The translations under genes and the position numbers were made by a program. A stretch of 64,000 bases of DNA from Proteiniphilum sp. X52. Its GTDB lineage: Bacteria; Bacteroidota; Bacteroidia; Bacteroidales; Dysgonomonadaceae. Under the pieces are notes generated by a model that was not told where the DNA came from, searched no databases, and worked only from the letters and a program-made list of their open reading frames with translations. This document shows, in pieces, positions 1 to 8,366 of this stretch (positions within the stretch are counted from its first letter, which is position 1; every line of letters starts with the position of its first letter). The stretch spans positions 1-64,000 of the forward strand of contig NZ_RDSD01000016.1 of NCBI RefSeq assembly GCF_003712195.1, read 5' to 3'.

Positions 1-606
1 CATCAATGGGAAGAACGATTAAATAATAAAATTGAGCGTCTTATCAGACAGGCCGGCTTTAGAGAACAGGCCAGTGTGGCAGATGTTGAGTATAATCAAC
101 AACGCAATCTGGATAAAAATATGTTTACCCGCCTGGCCACTCTGGACTTTATTAAACGAAAAGAAAACATCATAATAACTGGAGCATCCGGTACGGGCAA
201 AAGCTATCTTGCTCAAGCTTTGGGATATCAGGCCTGTTTAATGGAATACAAAGTGTTATATGCAAACACCGCCAAACTTATCGGCAGACTCAAACTCAGT
301 AAAATAGACGGCACTTACCTGAAGGAGCTGTCAAAACTAATAAAAACAGATATGCTTATCTTAGACGACTTTGGGCTGCATGCCTTTGACAATCAATCCA
401 GGGAGATATTACTGGATATTATTGACGAGAGGCATAATCAGGCATCAACTATATTGTCCTCACAGATACCGGTATCAGCCTGGTATGATCTGATTGGGGA
501 GCAAACAATAGCAGATGCTGTCCTGGACAGGATGGTAAACTCATCACACAGAATAATACTTAAAGGTGAGTCACTTAGGAAAGGAAAAATAAGTACAACT
601 GAATAA
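1..606 (+). CDS. istB: IstB-like ATPase of an IS21-family element (5' end outside window)
   Basis: This is the transposition helper ATPase that works with the IstA transposase in IS21-family elements. The frame is open from base 1, so the start lies upstream of the window; the GTG at 76 is internal, because the codons before it (HQWEERLNNKIERLIRQAGF) are typical IstB sequence. A Walker A motif, GASGTGKS, lies at 181-204 and a Walker B motif, LILDDFG, near 355-375. The C-terminal part ends at a normal length for the family, followed by the element's terminal repeats at 661-703. istA is not in the window and should lie to the left. The visible part looks intact. Confidence in the family is high; whether the whole element is active cannot be judged. 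Confidence 0.95.
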   Translation, partial: HQWEERLNNKIERLIRQAGFREQASVADVEYNQQRNLDKNMFTRLATLDFIKRKENIIITGASGTGKSYLAQALGYQACLMEYKVLYANTAKLIGRLKLSKIDGTYLKELSKLIKTDMLILDDFGLHAFDNQSREILLDIIDERHNQASTILSSQIPVSAWYDLIGEQTIADAVLDRMVNSSHRIILKGESLRKGKISTTE

Positions 607-660
607 AATTATTAACTTTGCCAATGATCTTTCAAATAGCTAAAAGAACTATGAATTATA

Positions 661-703
661 GTGGCACGGTTTGACCGAAAAGAGTGGCACTATCAGACCG
701 AAA
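661..703 (+). repeat. Two terminal direct repeats of the IS21-family element
   Basis: GTGGCACGGTTTGACCGAAA (661-680) and GTGGCACTATCAGACCGAAA (684-703) match at most positions and are separated by 3 bp. Multiple roughly 20-bp repeats at the ends, bound by the transposase, are a known trait of IS21-family elements. The matching left-end copies lie outside the window. Confidence 0.85.
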
Positions 704-709
704 TACACA

Positions 710-1249
710 ATTTTTTCTGATGAAGATCTCATATTATCAATAGCAAAATTTAAACCAGAGATTATTATTCGTGATGATTATGTCTATTTTATAAGACCTA
801 GCACTCTTAACTTTTACAGGTTTAAAATTGGCGTATTTGATGTTGAAGAAACAAAAAAAATTGAAGACGATTCTTATCAGATAGAAAAAGTTGACGATGC
901 AAACTACCTTATTAATAACCAAAGAATGAAAGCGTTTGACTACTTGTATAATAATAGTATAACTGATAATATTTTCCTCGTTAAAGATGGACTGATAATA
1001 AAAAGTGAAATTGGTAAGTATTATCCAAATGAAAGGAAGAAAATATTAGAAAGAAATAAAAGATTTAATAAATTTCATTTCTATTCATTTTCTAAATTAA
1101 AAAATGAAGATGTTGCTTGGATATCTAATGTCTCTTTCAATTCATACAATTATTTAAATTTCAAAGATGATTTGTATGTTATTGAAAATACTTTGAATAA
1201 TGAAACAGAACAAAGTAAATTGTATAAAATAAATTTTTTAAGCAAATGA
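710..1249 (+). pseudogene. 3' fragment of an unrecognised gene, cut by the IS21 end
   Basis: A frame from about 710 to the TGA at 1247-1249 encodes roughly 179 residues. It can only be extended upstream by reading through the IS terminal repeats (a TTG at 671 would make a hybrid start), so the original N-terminus has been removed. The remaining protein is rich in K, N, Y, F and I, and has repeated short beta-type strands such as DDYVYFIRP and FKDDLYVIEN, as in the propeller-like proteins that often accompany NVEALA genes. No family is assigned with certainty. The stop overlaps the ATG of the NVEALA gene (ATGA), so the two were translationally coupled. Confidence 0.6.
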
Positions 1250-1530
1250 AGAAGAAAGTTCTTTCGGGCCTGTTCGCCCTCGCACTCCTGGCAAGCGCAG
1301 GTTTTGGAGTGCACAAAAGTATGAACGGTAATGCCGGTCTGAGTGATTTGGCATTGGCCAATGTGTAGGCGCTGGCACAGGTAAGTGGTGAAGATGTTGT
1401 TATTACCTGCGGACGATATGAAGGGCGCTGCTGGGCTGGTTTTCCTACTCCATCAGGGCTTCACTTTAACTGTTATTTTACAGGATTACAGAGGGATTAT
1501 TGTGTATGGGATCCTTTTGGTATTGGTTAG
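1246..1530 (+). pseudogene. NVEALA-family exported peptide with an amber codon inside the NVEALA motif
   Basis: The reading frame encodes a 94-residue Bacteroidales NVEALA-type protein if one in-frame TAG is ignored. The N-terminus (MKKKVLSGLFALALLASAGF) is a signal-like hydrophobic segment. The family's hallmark motif appears as N-V-stop-A-L-A, with TAG at 1366-1368 where GAG (Glu) is expected. The frame then stays open for 53 more codons, encoding a Cys-rich tail (TCGRYEGRC, HFNCYF, DYCVWDPFG) before a TAG at 1528-1530. It is followed by a six-bladed propeller lipoprotein, the usual partner. Either a recent nonsense mutation or, less likely, amber recoding. The family's function is not established. 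Confidence 0.85.
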
Positions 1531-1550
1531 AAATAATAACTCCTAAAATA

Positions 1551-1586
1551 GATATGGATTTGTTTGTGTGGGATCCATTTCAATAA
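1551..1586 (+). pseudogene. Remnant of a second NVEALA-type C-terminus
   Basis: In one frame this stretch reads D-M-D-L-F-V-W-D-P-F-Q-stop, closely repeating the end of the gene just upstream (D-Y-C-V-W-D-P-F-G). The match also shows in the DNA (GTGTGGGATCC against GTGTATGGGATCC at 1501-1513). It looks like what is left of a tandem copy after deletion. Confidence 0.5.
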
Positions 1587-1595
1587 ATTAGCGAG

Positions 1596-2735
1596 ATGAA
1601 AAAAACAATAAGCTTTATCCCTATTTTTTTCTTTTTCATGTTATCGCCGTATGGCTGCGGTAAGAAAACAGAAAAAAGGGAAAATACGATTATTTCTGTT
1701 GACATAGAAAAGGATCAAAAAGTTTCTTTTAGTGATTTATTTTCCCACATAGAGTTGATTCCTTTAGAAACCAACCCACAATCATTGATAAGGGGAATCA
1801 GAAAAGTAATCATCCTTGAAGATATTTTCTATGTTTTCGATTACAATAAAGCTGAAATATTAAGATTTGACGCTTCTGGTAATTATCTAAATAAGATAAG
1901 CAACCGAGGAGAAGGTCCTCAAGAATATGTAAATATTGGCGATTTTGAAATAGATGCGGGAGCCAAAACAATAAACGTGTTATCGGCAGTGAATAACAGC
2001 ATGTATGAGTTCGATCTGAGTGGGAACTTTAAAAGCAAATATAAACTTCCCGAAATAGCGGGCGCATACAAATGTTTCAGAAGTATGAATAATGATACAA
2101 TAGTGTTTTTTACTTTTGACTACAATAATAGAATCAAGTTTTATTCGAAAGACAAAAAGAAAATAATAAAGGAGTTATTACCCGAAAAAGAAAATATCCT
2201 TAACAGATTTGCATATAATGTGTTTCCGTATTCAAATTATCTGCACCGGGCCTCATCAAACCATCTTTTCAGTATTGATAATGATTGCAGTGTCAATATT
2301 GGATATTCTTGGGATTTTGGGAGTTTAAACAATACGAAAAGTCAGATAAAAAATATTGAGAAAATATCCCCTAATGAGTTGCAATTCTATTTTTTGAAAC
2401 TCACCAATTCAGAATTAATCAATCAGATTATCATCTTACACGGAGGTAATTCCCGATTTCTTTTTTCTCAAATATGGAGAAAGGGCAGACATATCAATAT
2501 TTTCCATGACAAAATAGAAAATAAGAATTTTGTTTTTGAGAAAATGGTGGAAAAGGCTACATTTCATCCGTTATTTTGGCATGACGATTATGTGGTGGGA
2601 TATTATAGTGATGAGTGGGGTGAAATTGATGATACTCTTCCTGATGAAATATTAGACAGTCATGCCAGAAAAATTAAAGAGAGTATAACTGAATACGATA
2701 ATCCGGTATTCATAAAATATCACTTTAAAAAGTAA
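1596..2735 (+). CDS. Six-bladed beta-propeller lipoprotein
   Basis: 379 residues. The N-terminus has a signal peptide ending in a lipobox with Cys at about residue 21 (SPYGC), so the product is probably a lipoprotein. The sequence from about residue 47, with FSHIELIPLETN, then IFYVFDYNKAEILRFDASGN and NRGEGPQEYVNIGDFEID, is characteristic of the Bacteroidetes six-bladed propeller family (PF17170 type). These proteins commonly sit next to NVEALA peptides, as here. Molecular function is unknown; a role in recognising or handling the exported peptide is a guess. Low-GC codon use differs from the core genes that follow. The start at 1596 gives the complete signal peptide. The gene appears intact although its neighbours are decayed. 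Confidence 0.88.
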   Translation: MKKTISFIPIFFFFMLSPYGCGKKTEKRENTIISVDIEKDQKVSFSDLFSHIELIPLETNPQSLIRGIRKVIILEDIFYVFDYNKAEILRFDASGNYLNKISNRGEGPQEYVNIGDFEIDAGAKTINVLSAVNNSMYEFDLSGNFKSKYKLPEIAGAYKCFRSMNNDTIVFFTFDYNNRIKFYSKDKKKIIKELLPEKENILNRFAYNVFPYSNYLHRASSNHLFSIDNDCSVNIGYSWDFGSLNNTKSQIKNIEKISPNELQFYFLKLTNSELINQIIILHGGNSRFLFSQIWRKGRHINIFHDKIENKNFVFEKMVEKATFHPLFWHDDYVVGYYSDEWGEIDDTLPDEILDSHARKIKESITEYDNPVFIKYHFKK

Positions 2736-2740
2736 TCCTA

Positions 2741-2893
2741 ATGGACAGAAATATTTTCTTTTCACAGATAATCATTTGTTTCATTTGCTTAATGTCCATT
2801 TCATCTTGTTCAGATAAAAGAAAAGCCCGACGGAACGGTCCACCAACTGTTGCCCGACACGTCGGCGGAAGTAACCGCCATCACGAATTTTGA
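2741..2893 (+). pseudogene. Lipoprotein stub: signal peptide only
   Basis: An ATG five bases after the preceding stop opens a frame beginning MDRNIFFSQIIICF and reaching a clear lipobox (SISSC, Cys 23) followed by SDKRK. From about 2820 the frame reads arginine-rich nonsense and stops at 2891-2893. Size and position suggest a second propeller lipoprotein gene of the same cluster whose body was deleted. The break coincides with a change from AT-rich to GC-richer sequence. Confidence 0.65.
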
Positions 2894-4510: not shown

Positions 4511-5091
4511 TAAAAATCGGCATCACCGGAGGGATAGGAAGCGGGAAATCAGTCGTATCCGAACTTTTCCGCCTGCATGGAATTCCTGTATACAATGCCG
4601 ACCAGGAAGCAAAAAAACTGAATGATTCGTCACCTTATATCCGCGGGCAATTGACACAGCAGTTCGGAGAAGATCTTTATGTCAATGACAAACTCAACAG
4701 AAAAAAGCTGGCGTCCATTATTTTTCATGATAGTCGCAAATTGGCTTTGGTCAATTCCATTATCCATCCGGAACTGGCCAGGCATTTTACCGAATGGTCC
4801 CGGATGCGGGAACATTGCCCGATGGTGATCCTGGATGCCGCCCTCCTTATTGAGGCGGGCTTTCACCACTTCGTGGACAAAGTGGTGATGGTACAAGCTC
4901 CGAAAGAGCTTCGTATCGCCAGGGTTATGCAGCGCGACCGTTCGCCACGCCACGAGGTAGAAGCCCGGATGGACAGCCAACTCCCTGAAGAGGAGAAAAT
5001 AAAGTATGCCGATTATGTAATCTGCAACGACAACAGCCATTCGCTTATCAAACAGGTCTCAGAACTGATGAGAAGAGTAACTGAAAGTTGA
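4507..5091 (+). CDS. coaE: Dephospho-CoA kinase
   Basis: 194 residues. Catalyses the last step of coenzyme A synthesis, ATP-dependent phosphorylation of the 3'-hydroxyl of dephospho-CoA, in the cytoplasm. The P-loop is GITGGIGSGKS at residues 5-15, followed by the substrate-binding VYNADQEAKKL segment and the C-terminal DYVICND motif typical of CoaE. Length is normal. Last gene of the yajC-ybbR-coaE group. Confidence 0.96.
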   Translation: MIKIGITGGIGSGKSVVSELFRLHGIPVYNADQEAKKLNDSSPYIRGQLTQQFGEDLYVNDKLNRKKLASIIFHDSRKLALVNSIIHPELARHFTEWSRMREHCPMVILDAALLIEAGFHHFVDKVVMVQAPKELRIARVMQRDRSPRHEVEARMDSQLPEEEKIKYADYVICNDNSHSLIKQVSELMRRVTES

Positions 5092-5152
5092 TAGAAAAGT
5101 ATTACCTGATTGACCATCATCACTTATTTGTATCATTAACTTTACGAAAACG

Positions 5153-5183
5153 TTGTTTTTCCGCGAATATAACCGTAACTTTG
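5153..5183 (+). promoter_or_regulatory. Promoter of the small wHTH gene
   Basis: TTG at 5153-5155 and TAACTTTG at 5176-5183 are 20 bp apart, matching the Bacteroidota -33/-7 arrangement. The start codon is 40 bp downstream. Confidence 0.75.
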
Positions 5184-5223
5184 CGCCGAAATTATTAGGT
5201 TATACTATTAAAAATCAAAATGA

Positions 5224-5421
5224 ATGGTTGAACAAATTGGAATCAACGCCGGCAAGGTTTGGACGATTCTGGACGCGAAAGGCCGGCAGAATGTCAAAGA
5301 GATCAAAAAAGCGACGAAATTGGCCGATAAAGACCTCTACGCAGCACTCGGATGGCTGGCAAGAGAGGGAAAAGTTGTTTTGGACGCCGAAGAAAAAGAA
5401 CTCTTCGCGTCATTGAGCTGA
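5224..5421 (+). CDS. Small winged helix-turn-helix protein (DUF2582 type)
   Basis: 65 residues. The sequence MVEQIGINAGKVWTILDAKG followed by NVKEIKKATKLADKDLYAALGWLAREGKV matches the short DUF2582 winged-helix family widespread in Bacteroidetes. The whole protein is one wHTH domain, so it could bind DNA or act as a protein-interaction module; its targets are unknown. Monocistronic: its own promoter lies upstream and an intrinsic terminator directly downstream. Confidence 0.88.
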   Translation: MVEQIGINAGKVWTILDAKGRQNVKEIKKATKLADKDLYAALGWLAREGKVVLDAEEKELFASLS

Positions 5422-5456
5422 CAAGTAAAACTCATCGTTTAAATGAAAAAGTGTGT

Positions 5457-5484
5457 AAAAGCTGTCATTTCAGACAGCTTTTTT
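5457..5484 (+). terminator. Intrinsic terminator after the wHTH gene
   Basis: AAAAGCTGTC (5457-5466), a 6-nt loop, then GACAGCTTTT (5473-5482) continuing into a T-run. A perfect 10-bp stem followed by T residues. Confidence 0.9.
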
Positions 5485-5546
5485 CTTGCTACTTCTTCTC
5501 CTCCTATGAATTTATCATCTATCTTTACGCAAAAGATACGGATTAA

Positions 5547-8366
5547 ATGAAAACTAAACAATTACGTGACCGGCTCTTACAATTATTCCCTCAAGACCAG
5601 GTTTTCACCGATGAACTTTCACGTCTCGTCAAAGGAACGGACGCGGGACTCTACCGGCTTATTCCTAAAGCAGTAGTAAGGGTAGACTCAGAAGAGGAAG
5701 TAATTCGTTTATTGGGATTCTGCCGGACAGAAAACCTGCCTGTAACATTCAAAGCCGCAGGCACCAGTTTAAGTGGGCAGACCATCTCCGACTCCATACT
5801 AATGGAAGCCGGTAGCGGATTTGAATTTTCCACCATCACCGACGAGGGGCGTACCGCCACATTTGGGTGTGGACTCACCGGTGCCGCGGCAAACCGCGTG
5901 TTGATGAGATATAGGCGCAAATTGGGGCCGAAGCCGGCATCTATCAACTCCGCAAAAATCGGCGGGATTATTGCCAACAATGCAAGTGGATCGAGTTACG
6001 GGATCCAGCATAACAGCTATAACACGATCCGGTCGATGCGCATTATCTTTGCCGACGGTTCGTTATTAGATACTGCCGACAATGAGAGTTGCCGGACTTT
6101 CATCGCCTCTCATCCCCAACTTATCGCGGAAATTGAGCAGTTACACAACGATGCGGTCAGCCATGAAGCGATCCGGAAAAAGATCGCTTCAAAATTTGAA
6201 ATCAAAAACACGTGTGGTTACGGGGTAAATTCACTGATTGATTTCAATGATCCCATCCAGATTATCCAGCATCTGATGATTGGTTCCGAAGGTACTCTGG
6301 GATTTGTCTCACAAGCTACTTTCAAGACGGTGCGCGATGCCCCGATGAAAGCCACGGCAATGATCTATTTCCCCAACCTTCGGGAGGTAAGCAATACCAT
6401 CATCCCGTTGAGGAGTTGCCAGGTAAGCGCCGCTGAGTTGATGGATCGCAATGCCCTGCGCGCCGTGGAAGATCAGGAGGGCATGCCCGGAGAGCTGAAA
6501 TCGTTACCGGAGGGTGCGGCCGCATTGCTGATCGACACTTCAGCCGACGACGAAGAGACTTTACTGTCACAGATGGCTGAGATTGAGGAAAAGCTCGCGC
6601 ATATCAAGACACTTACCCCGATCAGGTTCACCACCGACAAACACCTCTATAATCTCTACTGGAACGTGCGCAACGGACTCTTCACTTCGGCAGCAGCCAC
6701 CCGGCCTCCGCGCACGGCAAGCATTATTGAAGATGTCGCCTTCAGGGCCGAGTCGTTAGGGGATGCACTCACAGATGTGCGTGAGTTGCTCGTGCGTTCC
6801 GGTTATGGAAACGCTGTGATGTGGGGCCATCTGCTCGACGGCAATGTCCATTTCACCGTCTTCCCTGATATCAACACCCCCGAAGAAGTGGAAAAATATG
6901 CTGTCTTCATGGAAGAATTGTGCGAATTGGTGGCGGTAAAACACAACGGCAGTCTCAAGGCCGAGCACGGTACAGGACGCAATATGGCTCCCTTTGTGGA
7001 AAAAGAGTGGGGTGGCGAAATCCACGATCTGATGAGACGTATCAAAAAAACCTTCGATCCGGCGAACATCCTCAATCCCGGCGTCTTGATCAACGATGAC
7101 AGGGAGATATTCATCAAGAACCTGAAGCGGATCCCGGAAGCCCATCCGATCATTGACAAATGTATTGAATGTGGTTTTTGTGAAGTGAACTGTCCTTCAA
7201 AGAATCTGACCCTTACCCCCCGGCAACGGATTGTAGCCTACCGCCACCTGGCAGAACCGGAGGCATCAGCCACCAAGAAAAGCAAGCCGATCCAGAAGCA
7301 GGTGAAAGACATTTCCTATCCTTTGGAAGAGACCTGTGCTACCGACGGGTTGTGCGGACTTGCCTGTCCGGTGAGGATCGACACGGGAAAGCTCGTCAAA
7401 GAGTTACGCTGGCAGCAAAACGGCAGATTGGCCAACCGAATGGCCGATATCATTGCCGCCAATATGGCTGGCACGACCTCACTGTTACGCGGACTGATGC
7501 CGATTCCCCATTACATAGGAAAGAGCGTGGGATACGGCATAATGGAAAGCGTAACAAAAGGTCTTTACCGGTTAGGCGACGGAGCATTCCCTTTATGGAC
7601 ACGTCATACCCCTTCCGGCAGCAAAAGGATCACGCAGAATATTTTCCCGGCGGGGGCTCCCGACGCTCCCGTGGCGGTCTATTTCCCTTCGTGCATCACA
7701 CGGGCCATGGGCGGCCCCTCATTCGGCTATCAAGAGGCGGAAGATATACCGCAGAAGATGCTTTCCATATTACGAAAAGCGGGATATACCGTTATCATTC
7801 CTGAAGAAAAAAACAGGCTCTGCTGTGGCATGGCTTTTAGCAGCAAGGGATTCCGGAAACAGGCGCAAAAAAAGGAGAACGAGTTGAATGAAGCGCTTCT
7901 GAAAGCAAGTCGCGACGGGGAGTTACCCGTCATCTGTGACATGAGCCCTTGTCTGCTACATATGCGTGAAACACTCGACAAGCGGCTTAGATTATACGAC
8001 CAGGTTGAGTTTATCCACGATTTCTTGCTCGACCGCCTGCAATTTACCAGACAGCCTGTTTCTGTCGCCATACATACCACTTGCAGTTCCACCAAGATGC
8101 ACCTGGAGGAGAAACTCCATCGCGTGGCATCACGATGCGCGCAAAAAGTGACCCTCCCCGAAAATATTGACTGTTGCGGTTGGGCAGGAGACCGGGGATT
8201 TTTCTATCCGGAGCTCAACAACTCGGCCCTTGCGCCGCTGAGAGATAGTATCCGTGATGCCACAGAGGGGTATTCCAACAGCCGGACATGCGAGATAGGA
8301 TTATCGATAAACAGTGGCATTGCCTACAAATCGATCGTTTATCTGGTAGATAAGGCTACCACCTGA
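5547..8366 (+). CDS. FAD-linked D-2-hydroxyacid (D-lactate type) dehydrogenase with Fe-S and CCG domains
   Basis: 939 residues. It joins a GlcD/Dld-like flavoprotein (residues about 35-520, with PVTFKAAGTSLSGQT and IGGIIANNASGSSYG in the FAD-binding half and KAEHGTGRNMAPF near the end of the substrate half) to a ferredoxin-like part. Two 4Fe-4S motifs are visible: CIECGFCEVNC at about 539 and CATDGLCGLACP at about 597. Two CCG-domain motifs follow: RLCCGMAF at about 759 and DCCGWAG at about 876. This YdiJ-like arrangement oxidises D-lactate or a related D-2-hydroxyacid and passes electrons to quinone or another carrier; the exact substrate cannot be read from sequence. Stands alone between the wHTH gene and a convergent yitT. 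A weak -7 box (TATCTTTA) lies at 5520-5527. Confidence 0.9.
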   Translation: MKTKQLRDRLLQLFPQDQVFTDELSRLVKGTDAGLYRLIPKAVVRVDSEEEVIRLLGFCRTENLPVTFKAAGTSLSGQTISDSILMEAGSGFEFSTITDEGRTATFGCGLTGAAANRVLMRYRRKLGPKPASINSAKIGGIIANNASGSSYGIQHNSYNTIRSMRIIFADGSLLDTADNESCRTFIASHPQLIAEIEQLHNDAVSHEAIRKKIASKFEIKNTCGYGVNSLIDFNDPIQIIQHLMIGSEGTLGFVSQATFKTVRDAPMKATAMIYFPNLREVSNTIIPLRSCQVSAAELMDRNALRAVEDQEGMPGELKSLPEGAAALLIDTSADDEETLLSQMAEIEEKLAHIKTLTPIRFTTDKHLYNLYWNVRNGLFTSAAATRPPRTASIIEDVAFRAESLGDALTDVRELLVRSGYGNAVMWGHLLDGNVHFTVFPDINTPEEVEKYAVFMEELCELVAVKHNGSLKAEHGTGRNMAPFVEKEWGGEIHDLMRRIKKTFDPANILNPGVLINDDREIFIKNLKRIPEAHPIIDKCIECGFCEVNCPSKNLTLTPRQRIVAYRHLAEPEASATKKSKPIQKQVKDISYPLEETCATDGLCGLACPVRIDTGKLVKELRWQQNGRLANRMADIIAANMAGTTSLLRGLMPIPHYIGKSVGYGIMESVTKGLYRLGDGAFPLWTRHTPSGSKRITQNIFPAGAPDAPVAVYFPSCITRAMGGPSFGYQEAEDIPQKMLSILRKAGYTVIIPEEKNRLCCGMAFSSKGFRKQAQKKENELNEALLKASRDGELPVICDMSPCLLHMRETLDKRLRLYDQVEFIHDFLLDRLQFTRQPVSVAIHTTCSSTKMHLEEKLHRVASRCAQKVTLPENIDCCGWAGDRGFFYPELNNSALAPLRDSIRDATEGYSNSRTCEIGLSINSGIAYKSIVYLVDKATT

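Follow-up and report, generated by a model that had tools for sequence, protein, structure and literature searches.

The split peptide gene and its surroundings

The window, that is, the whole stretch of 64,000 nucleotides that was analysed, is the start of contig 10 in a 4.43-Mb draft assembly of 96 contigs. Near its left end, on the forward strand, lies a peptide gene of the NVEALA type (1246-1530; PF14055 profile match) with a TAG inside its reading frame. The ATG at 1246 begins a leader of 40 codons (1246-1365, forward strand; PF14055), which has an MKKK N-terminus and a hydrophobic stretch and ends in ...LALANV. Codon 41 (1366-1368, forward strand) is the amber TAG and is followed by GCG CTG GCA, encoding A-L-A; the motif reads N-V-stop-A-L-A with the stop at the place of Glu, as the first-pass annotation had it. 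Its description of the downstream part was equally correct: the 53 codons after the stop are open, encode a tail with four Cys residues and close with the natural stop (1369-1530, forward strand; TAG at 1528-1530).

Both the leader and the motif match PF14055. Read through its internal stop (reported as '1 TAG'), the gene reaches 35.2 bits, exceeding the 27-bit cut-off, and the 40-aa product alone scores 25.6 bits (E=1e-5), just below it. Five of the six motif positions are kept; the Glu is replaced by a stop, which is where this copy departs from the family and why we class it as a broken PF14055 copy rather than a working member. Also encoded are the Cys-containing tail, which lies beyond the stop (as a family criterion, such a tail is our own generalisation from the tails of the family), and the motif Ala residues at the proposed -3 and -1 positions, which are present but downstream of the amber codon.

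Both flanks of the locus are truncated. The contig itself starts at window position 1, and positions 76-606 (forward strand) hold the 3' part of an IS21-family istB helper-ATPase gene (PF01695, E=6e-50; NF038214, E=1.1e-55, below the 200-bit cut-off of that model). The end of the element (511-710, forward strand), with its junction to the cut gene at about 709/710, was located by a DNA search within the same genome: a copy on contig C51 matches the window at 98% up to 710 and ends there, another on C13 matches 633-709 at 100% and also ends there, and two weaker matches (85%) lie at contig ends. Beyond the junction stands the C-terminal remnant of a gene (710-1249, forward strand) whose start was lost to the IS21 end and whose stop overlaps the start of the peptide gene (ATGA). 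No credible Pfam match was found for this remnant, and the search of 101 relatives gave one weak homologue (E=0.0092) and no others.

On the other side of the peptide gene, positions 1549-1580 (forward strand) are a diverged repeat of the last codons of the tail (75% identical to 1487-1518, with a local score reached by 6 of 2000 simple shuffles) and probably represent the relic of a second tail. The adjoining gene encodes an intact six-bladed beta-propeller protein of 379 aa from the DUF5128 family (1596-2735, forward strand; PF17170, E=3.1e-37). It is conserved, being 74% identical to its relative in genome G028 with a dN/dS of 0.18, and it is the propeller neighbour that had been annotated; from its N-terminus it is presumed to be a lipoprotein. 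It is followed by a chimaeric remnant (2741-2893, forward strand), in which a deletion has brought the beginning of a small gene up against a fragment of an HlyD-type adaptor gene. Window positions 1652-2824 align at 80% to 4553-5725 of the G028 locus L052, and 2816-2883 align at 84% to L052 5913-5980, 188 bases further on in the G028 adaptor gene (HlyD_D23); positions 2817-2885 align at 90% to genome G012. Compared with G028, the genes downstream of the propeller gene are partly deleted. The decayed copies of which the annotation spoke exist elsewhere in the source genome as well: C44 carries a leader with a frameshift, C19 and C30 carry fragments of leaders, and C41 carries a short copy.

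NVEALA genes in related genomes

Our survey covered 101 genomes of the bacterial family to which the source genome belongs; NVEALA genes occur in 20 of them, with a total of 85 PF14055 matches. The source genome accounts for 10 of these, 8 of them without an in-frame stop, and its intact paralogues score up to 60 bits. At the third motif residue, 80 of the 85 matches have Glu, as had been expected of relatives, three have Leu, one has Ile and one, the window copy, has the stop. Glu at this position is strongly, though not absolutely, conserved.

In-frame stops were found in 4 of the 85 matches, each at a different codon: TAG at codon 41, the motif Glu, in the window gene; TAG at codon 7 in a copy on C30 of the source genome; TGA at codon 4 in G012; and TAG at the codon just before the motif in G025, the nearest other case. 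A stop recurring at the motif Glu across the family was thereby rejected, only one of the four standing there. The C30 copy is a second amber NVEALA gene of the source genome (G000:C30:34817-34996; L062:6812-7075); its tail is conserved relative to G012, with a dN of 0.073 and a dS of 0.922 over 37 codons.

With the amber codon treated as Glu, 27 of the 94 codons of the window gene are one step away from a stop, by 34 possible changes, 13 of them to TAG. Among the six motif codons this is true of the Glu codon only, so that nonsense would fall in the motif in about 1 in 27 cases by codon, or about 1 in 13 when the count is restricted to the 13 one-step changes to TAG. The position of the amber within the motif is a modest coincidence and not beyond chance. 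The special meaning that the annotation had attached to it was not borne out, as other copies break elsewhere and this locus has lost sequence at both flanks.

The organization of the genes was compared in the 67 of 85 copies that have a clean motif and start. Within genomes, leaders are much more alike than tails, with median identities of 0.66 versus 0.28 in the source genome (7 copies), 0.50 versus 0.23 in G012 (19 copies), 0.62 versus 0.23 in G021 (9 copies) and 0.45 versus 0.26 in G137 (9 copies). An even number of Cys residues was counted in 55 of these 67 tails. In the clusters, peptide genes alternate with genes for six-bladed propellers of the families DUF5128 (PF17170) and TolB_like (PF15869); no description of a role of propellers with NVEALA peptides was found in the open-licence literature. 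The same clusters also hold DUF1573, Trans_reg_C-domain, transglutaminase-like and Wzy_C (O-antigen-ligase) proteins, together with a signal peptidase I of the S26 family. In the source genome, the S26 gene lies beside a Wzy_C gene in an NVEALA/propeller cluster (G000:C41:1565-4097; L066). In the complete genome G012, the NVEALA matches number 22, and the majority lie within 60 kb together with propeller and transposase-like genes (G012:C1:2953000-3012700; L108-L110).

Signal peptidase I follows the Ala-X-Ala rule. In likeness to substrates of this enzyme, the window gene encodes an MKKK N-terminus followed by a hydrophobic stretch, and Ala occupies motif position 4 (the proposed -3) in 83 and position 6 (-1) in 82 of the 85 matches. 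A subfamily of the S26 enzymes co-occurs with the NVEALA genes: defined by 21 entries, gene fragments among them, with E of about 1e-30 or better, a cut chosen after seeing the list, it is present in 12 of the 101 genomes, and 11 of these 12 are among the 20 NVEALA genomes (Fisher P 1.2e-8, a value that ignores the relatedness of the genomes). Thirteen of the 21 entries lie within 2.5 kb of an NVEALA match; that of the source genome is 5.5 kb from the nearest one. At the chosen cut, 9 of the 20 NVEALA genomes are without the subfamily, and one carrier, G121, has it without NVEALA. With the alanines at positions 4 and 6 and the co-occurring peptidase, the most plausible reading of NVEALA is that of a putative Ala-X-Ala cleavage site, in agreement with the annotation's idea of a processing site, and it looks like an extended form of the signal peptidase I site. 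About 20 residues separate the hydrophobic stretch of the NVEALA leader from the predicted site, a greater distance than signal peptides usually have.

Bacteroidetocin leaders are of the double-glycine type, in contrast to the NVEALA leader. With leader/core peptide precursors such as the class II bacteriocins and the bacteroidetocins (PMC6671954), NVEALA genes share a conserved leader and a diverse, often Cys-containing core; they differ in a leader without the double-glycine motif, in a nearby signal peptidase instead of a C39 peptidase-transporter, and in having propeller proteins as partners.

Age of the stop and decoding of UAG

The first-pass annotation had called the lesion either recent or tolerated. 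One close tail was found outside the source genome, in a Bacteroidales MAG (G102:C386 = JAAZMQ010000381.1), with 82% identity to the window across 252 bases. There the motif retains its Glu (NVEALG). The G102 copy has lost one base within the first codons of its tail, its start is changed, and a gene for a DDE transposase is inserted between the peptide gene and the propeller gene that comes next.

In the 41 codons of the tail that align, the two copies differ by 10 synonymous and 3 nonsynonymous changes, giving a dN/dS of 0.07, which stems from a single relative and spans the time before the stop too. Were more than about 20% of the total path between the window and G102 neutral, three or fewer nonsynonymous changes would have a P of about 0.04. 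Thus, the small number of amino-acid changes in the tail indicates that both losses are recent, if neither of them is a sequencing error. Relatives with many unrelated lesions in the tail had been named as the sign of an old pseudogene; G102 does have a different lesion, but the remainder of the G102 tail is conserved, a sign of recent and not of old decay. The leader gives a dN/dS of 0.56 against G102 (31 codons) and the propeller gene a dS of 1.10, above the tail dS of 0.46, and G102 may therefore not be a simple orthologue.

A search with the tail in 393 genomes of the order returned the two own copies and six weak matches elsewhere (E 0.0017-0.0084). A search for related loci with the propeller protein returned nothing, a pattern scan returned a single named relative, and viral contigs gave no match. 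In G053 (L053:4070-4200, minus strand), a related propeller gene is preceded by a related tail with 43% identity, where a recognisable NVEALA leader in one frame was not found.

The "recent" part of the annotated claim thus agrees with the tail comparison; tolerance by suppression found no support in the decoding apparatus. RF1 is present (TIGR00019, 490.6 bits, over the cut-off; a frame of 374 aa without stops). Of 44 RF00005 matches, 43 were over the cut-off and all 43 are named by ARAGORN, which alone gave one further tRNA (Pro, cgg). None of the 43, with 150 of 192 candidates scored, has a CTA anticodon, the mark of the amber suppressor for which the annotation had proposed to look. A pattern combining a CTA anticodon loop with a T-arm matched at 7 places, versus 8 in a reversed control, and yielded no CTA tRNA; according to ARAGORN, two of these places hold tRNAs, one for Glu (ctc) and one for Trp (cca). 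A profile search gave no PylS match in the source genome. Among 14 control genomes, 13 also gave a match to the same model, one of them over the cut-off, and the absence of a match here is for this reason informative for PylS alone.

At the gene itself, the region searched for a recoding RNA fold (1330-1460) folds no better than shuffles (z -0.28), and the tail after the amber has no in-frame ATG, GTG or TTG for reinitiation and only one CTG. In 106,812 bases of the organism's own sequence, the stops that split frames are TAA in three cases, TGA in two and TAG in one, that is, without an excess of TAG. Among 37 window ORFs of at least 200 aa, 24 end in TAA, 12 in TGA and one in TAG, and both in-frame stops in PF14055 copies of the source genome are TAG. 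Such rare TAG gene ends together with two in-frame TAG stops would also be expected of an organism that reads TAG. Suppression or recoding is not supported by the tRNA scan, the CTA pattern, RF1, PylS or the types of frame-splitting stops.

Probable inactivation of the gene and the peptide family behind it

We consider it very probable that the gene at 1246-1530 is a recently inactivated copy, a null allele, of the NVEALA family in a decaying cluster. Through a single nonsense change at the motif Glu codon, translation would stop at residue 40, short of both the proposed cleavage site and the entire Cys-containing tail, so that no mature peptide could be made; we infer that the gene has lost its function. 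The cluster of peptide and propeller genes around it is decaying, cut upstream by an IS21 insertion and downstream by a deletion, with stop-free paralogues remaining elsewhere. In intact copies, the conserved leader would most likely direct export, and signal peptidase I, often the S26 enzyme of the family's own, would cut at N-V-E-A-L-A and release a short, probably disulfide-bonded peptide. Against a null allele count the tail, which is still clean, and the intact partner propeller gene.

Alternatively, the stop could be a sequencing or assembly error, the true codon being Glu and the gene intact. One base decides the matter, the rest of the gene is clean, and the draft has 96 contigs, one of which ends 1.4 kb from the site, with a repeated element alongside. 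However, single-base substitution errors are generally rare in finished drafts, the second amber copy in the source genome repeats the same stop codon, and the locus shows independent decay, which makes an error unlikely. The clean tails behind both TAGs of the source genome, along with the single TAG among 37 gene ends, speak for a tolerated amber, in which readthrough by a suppressor or near-cognate tRNA would yield some full-length peptide and mostly the leader alone. With RF1 present, a CTA tRNA and PylS not found in the searches described above, an ordinary RNA fold, no excess of TAG-split frames and the upstream gene interrupted by the IS21 end, we regard this as highly improbable.

The least credible account, to which we give hardly any weight, is a functional switch that makes the 40-residue leader without the tail the product, as a leader-only regulator or decoy. 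It would suit a stop placed exactly before the proposed cleavage site behind a leader that remains open, yet none of the other matches among the 85 of the family set stops at that codon, and the neighbouring genes are decaying.

The broken copy points to the family to which it belongs. Judging by its sequences, intact members would be exported and cleaved at the motif, and their tails would form disulfides. The annotation had suggested a small peptide-export-like system whose biology is not described; the family behaves in this way, and no description of an NVEALA peptide system was found in the open-licence literature, as judged by title. Tentatively, and with slightly less than even confidence in the reading taken as a whole, we propose that NVEALA genes constitute an undescribed peptide system of Bacteroidales that may combine a conserved leader, which would end in an extended Ala-X-Ala site for a signal peptidase I of its own, with a Cys tail that diversifies rapidly and with six-bladed-propeller lipoproteins as partners. 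Its clusters would also encode a DUF1573 protein, an O-antigen-ligase-like protein and a wHTH regulator in the membrane. Turnover of such a system would proceed through exchange of leaders, duplication and decay, and the amber copy would be a snapshot of this process.

The amber itself is ordinary, one copy lost among several. Its value lies in leading to a peptide family that is present in many copies and for which the literature searched describes no function. The co-occurring peptidase predicts mature peptides that would start right after NVEALA and carry disulfides, and if this prediction is true, the role of the peptides, be it in signalling, competition or surface assembly, would become testable.
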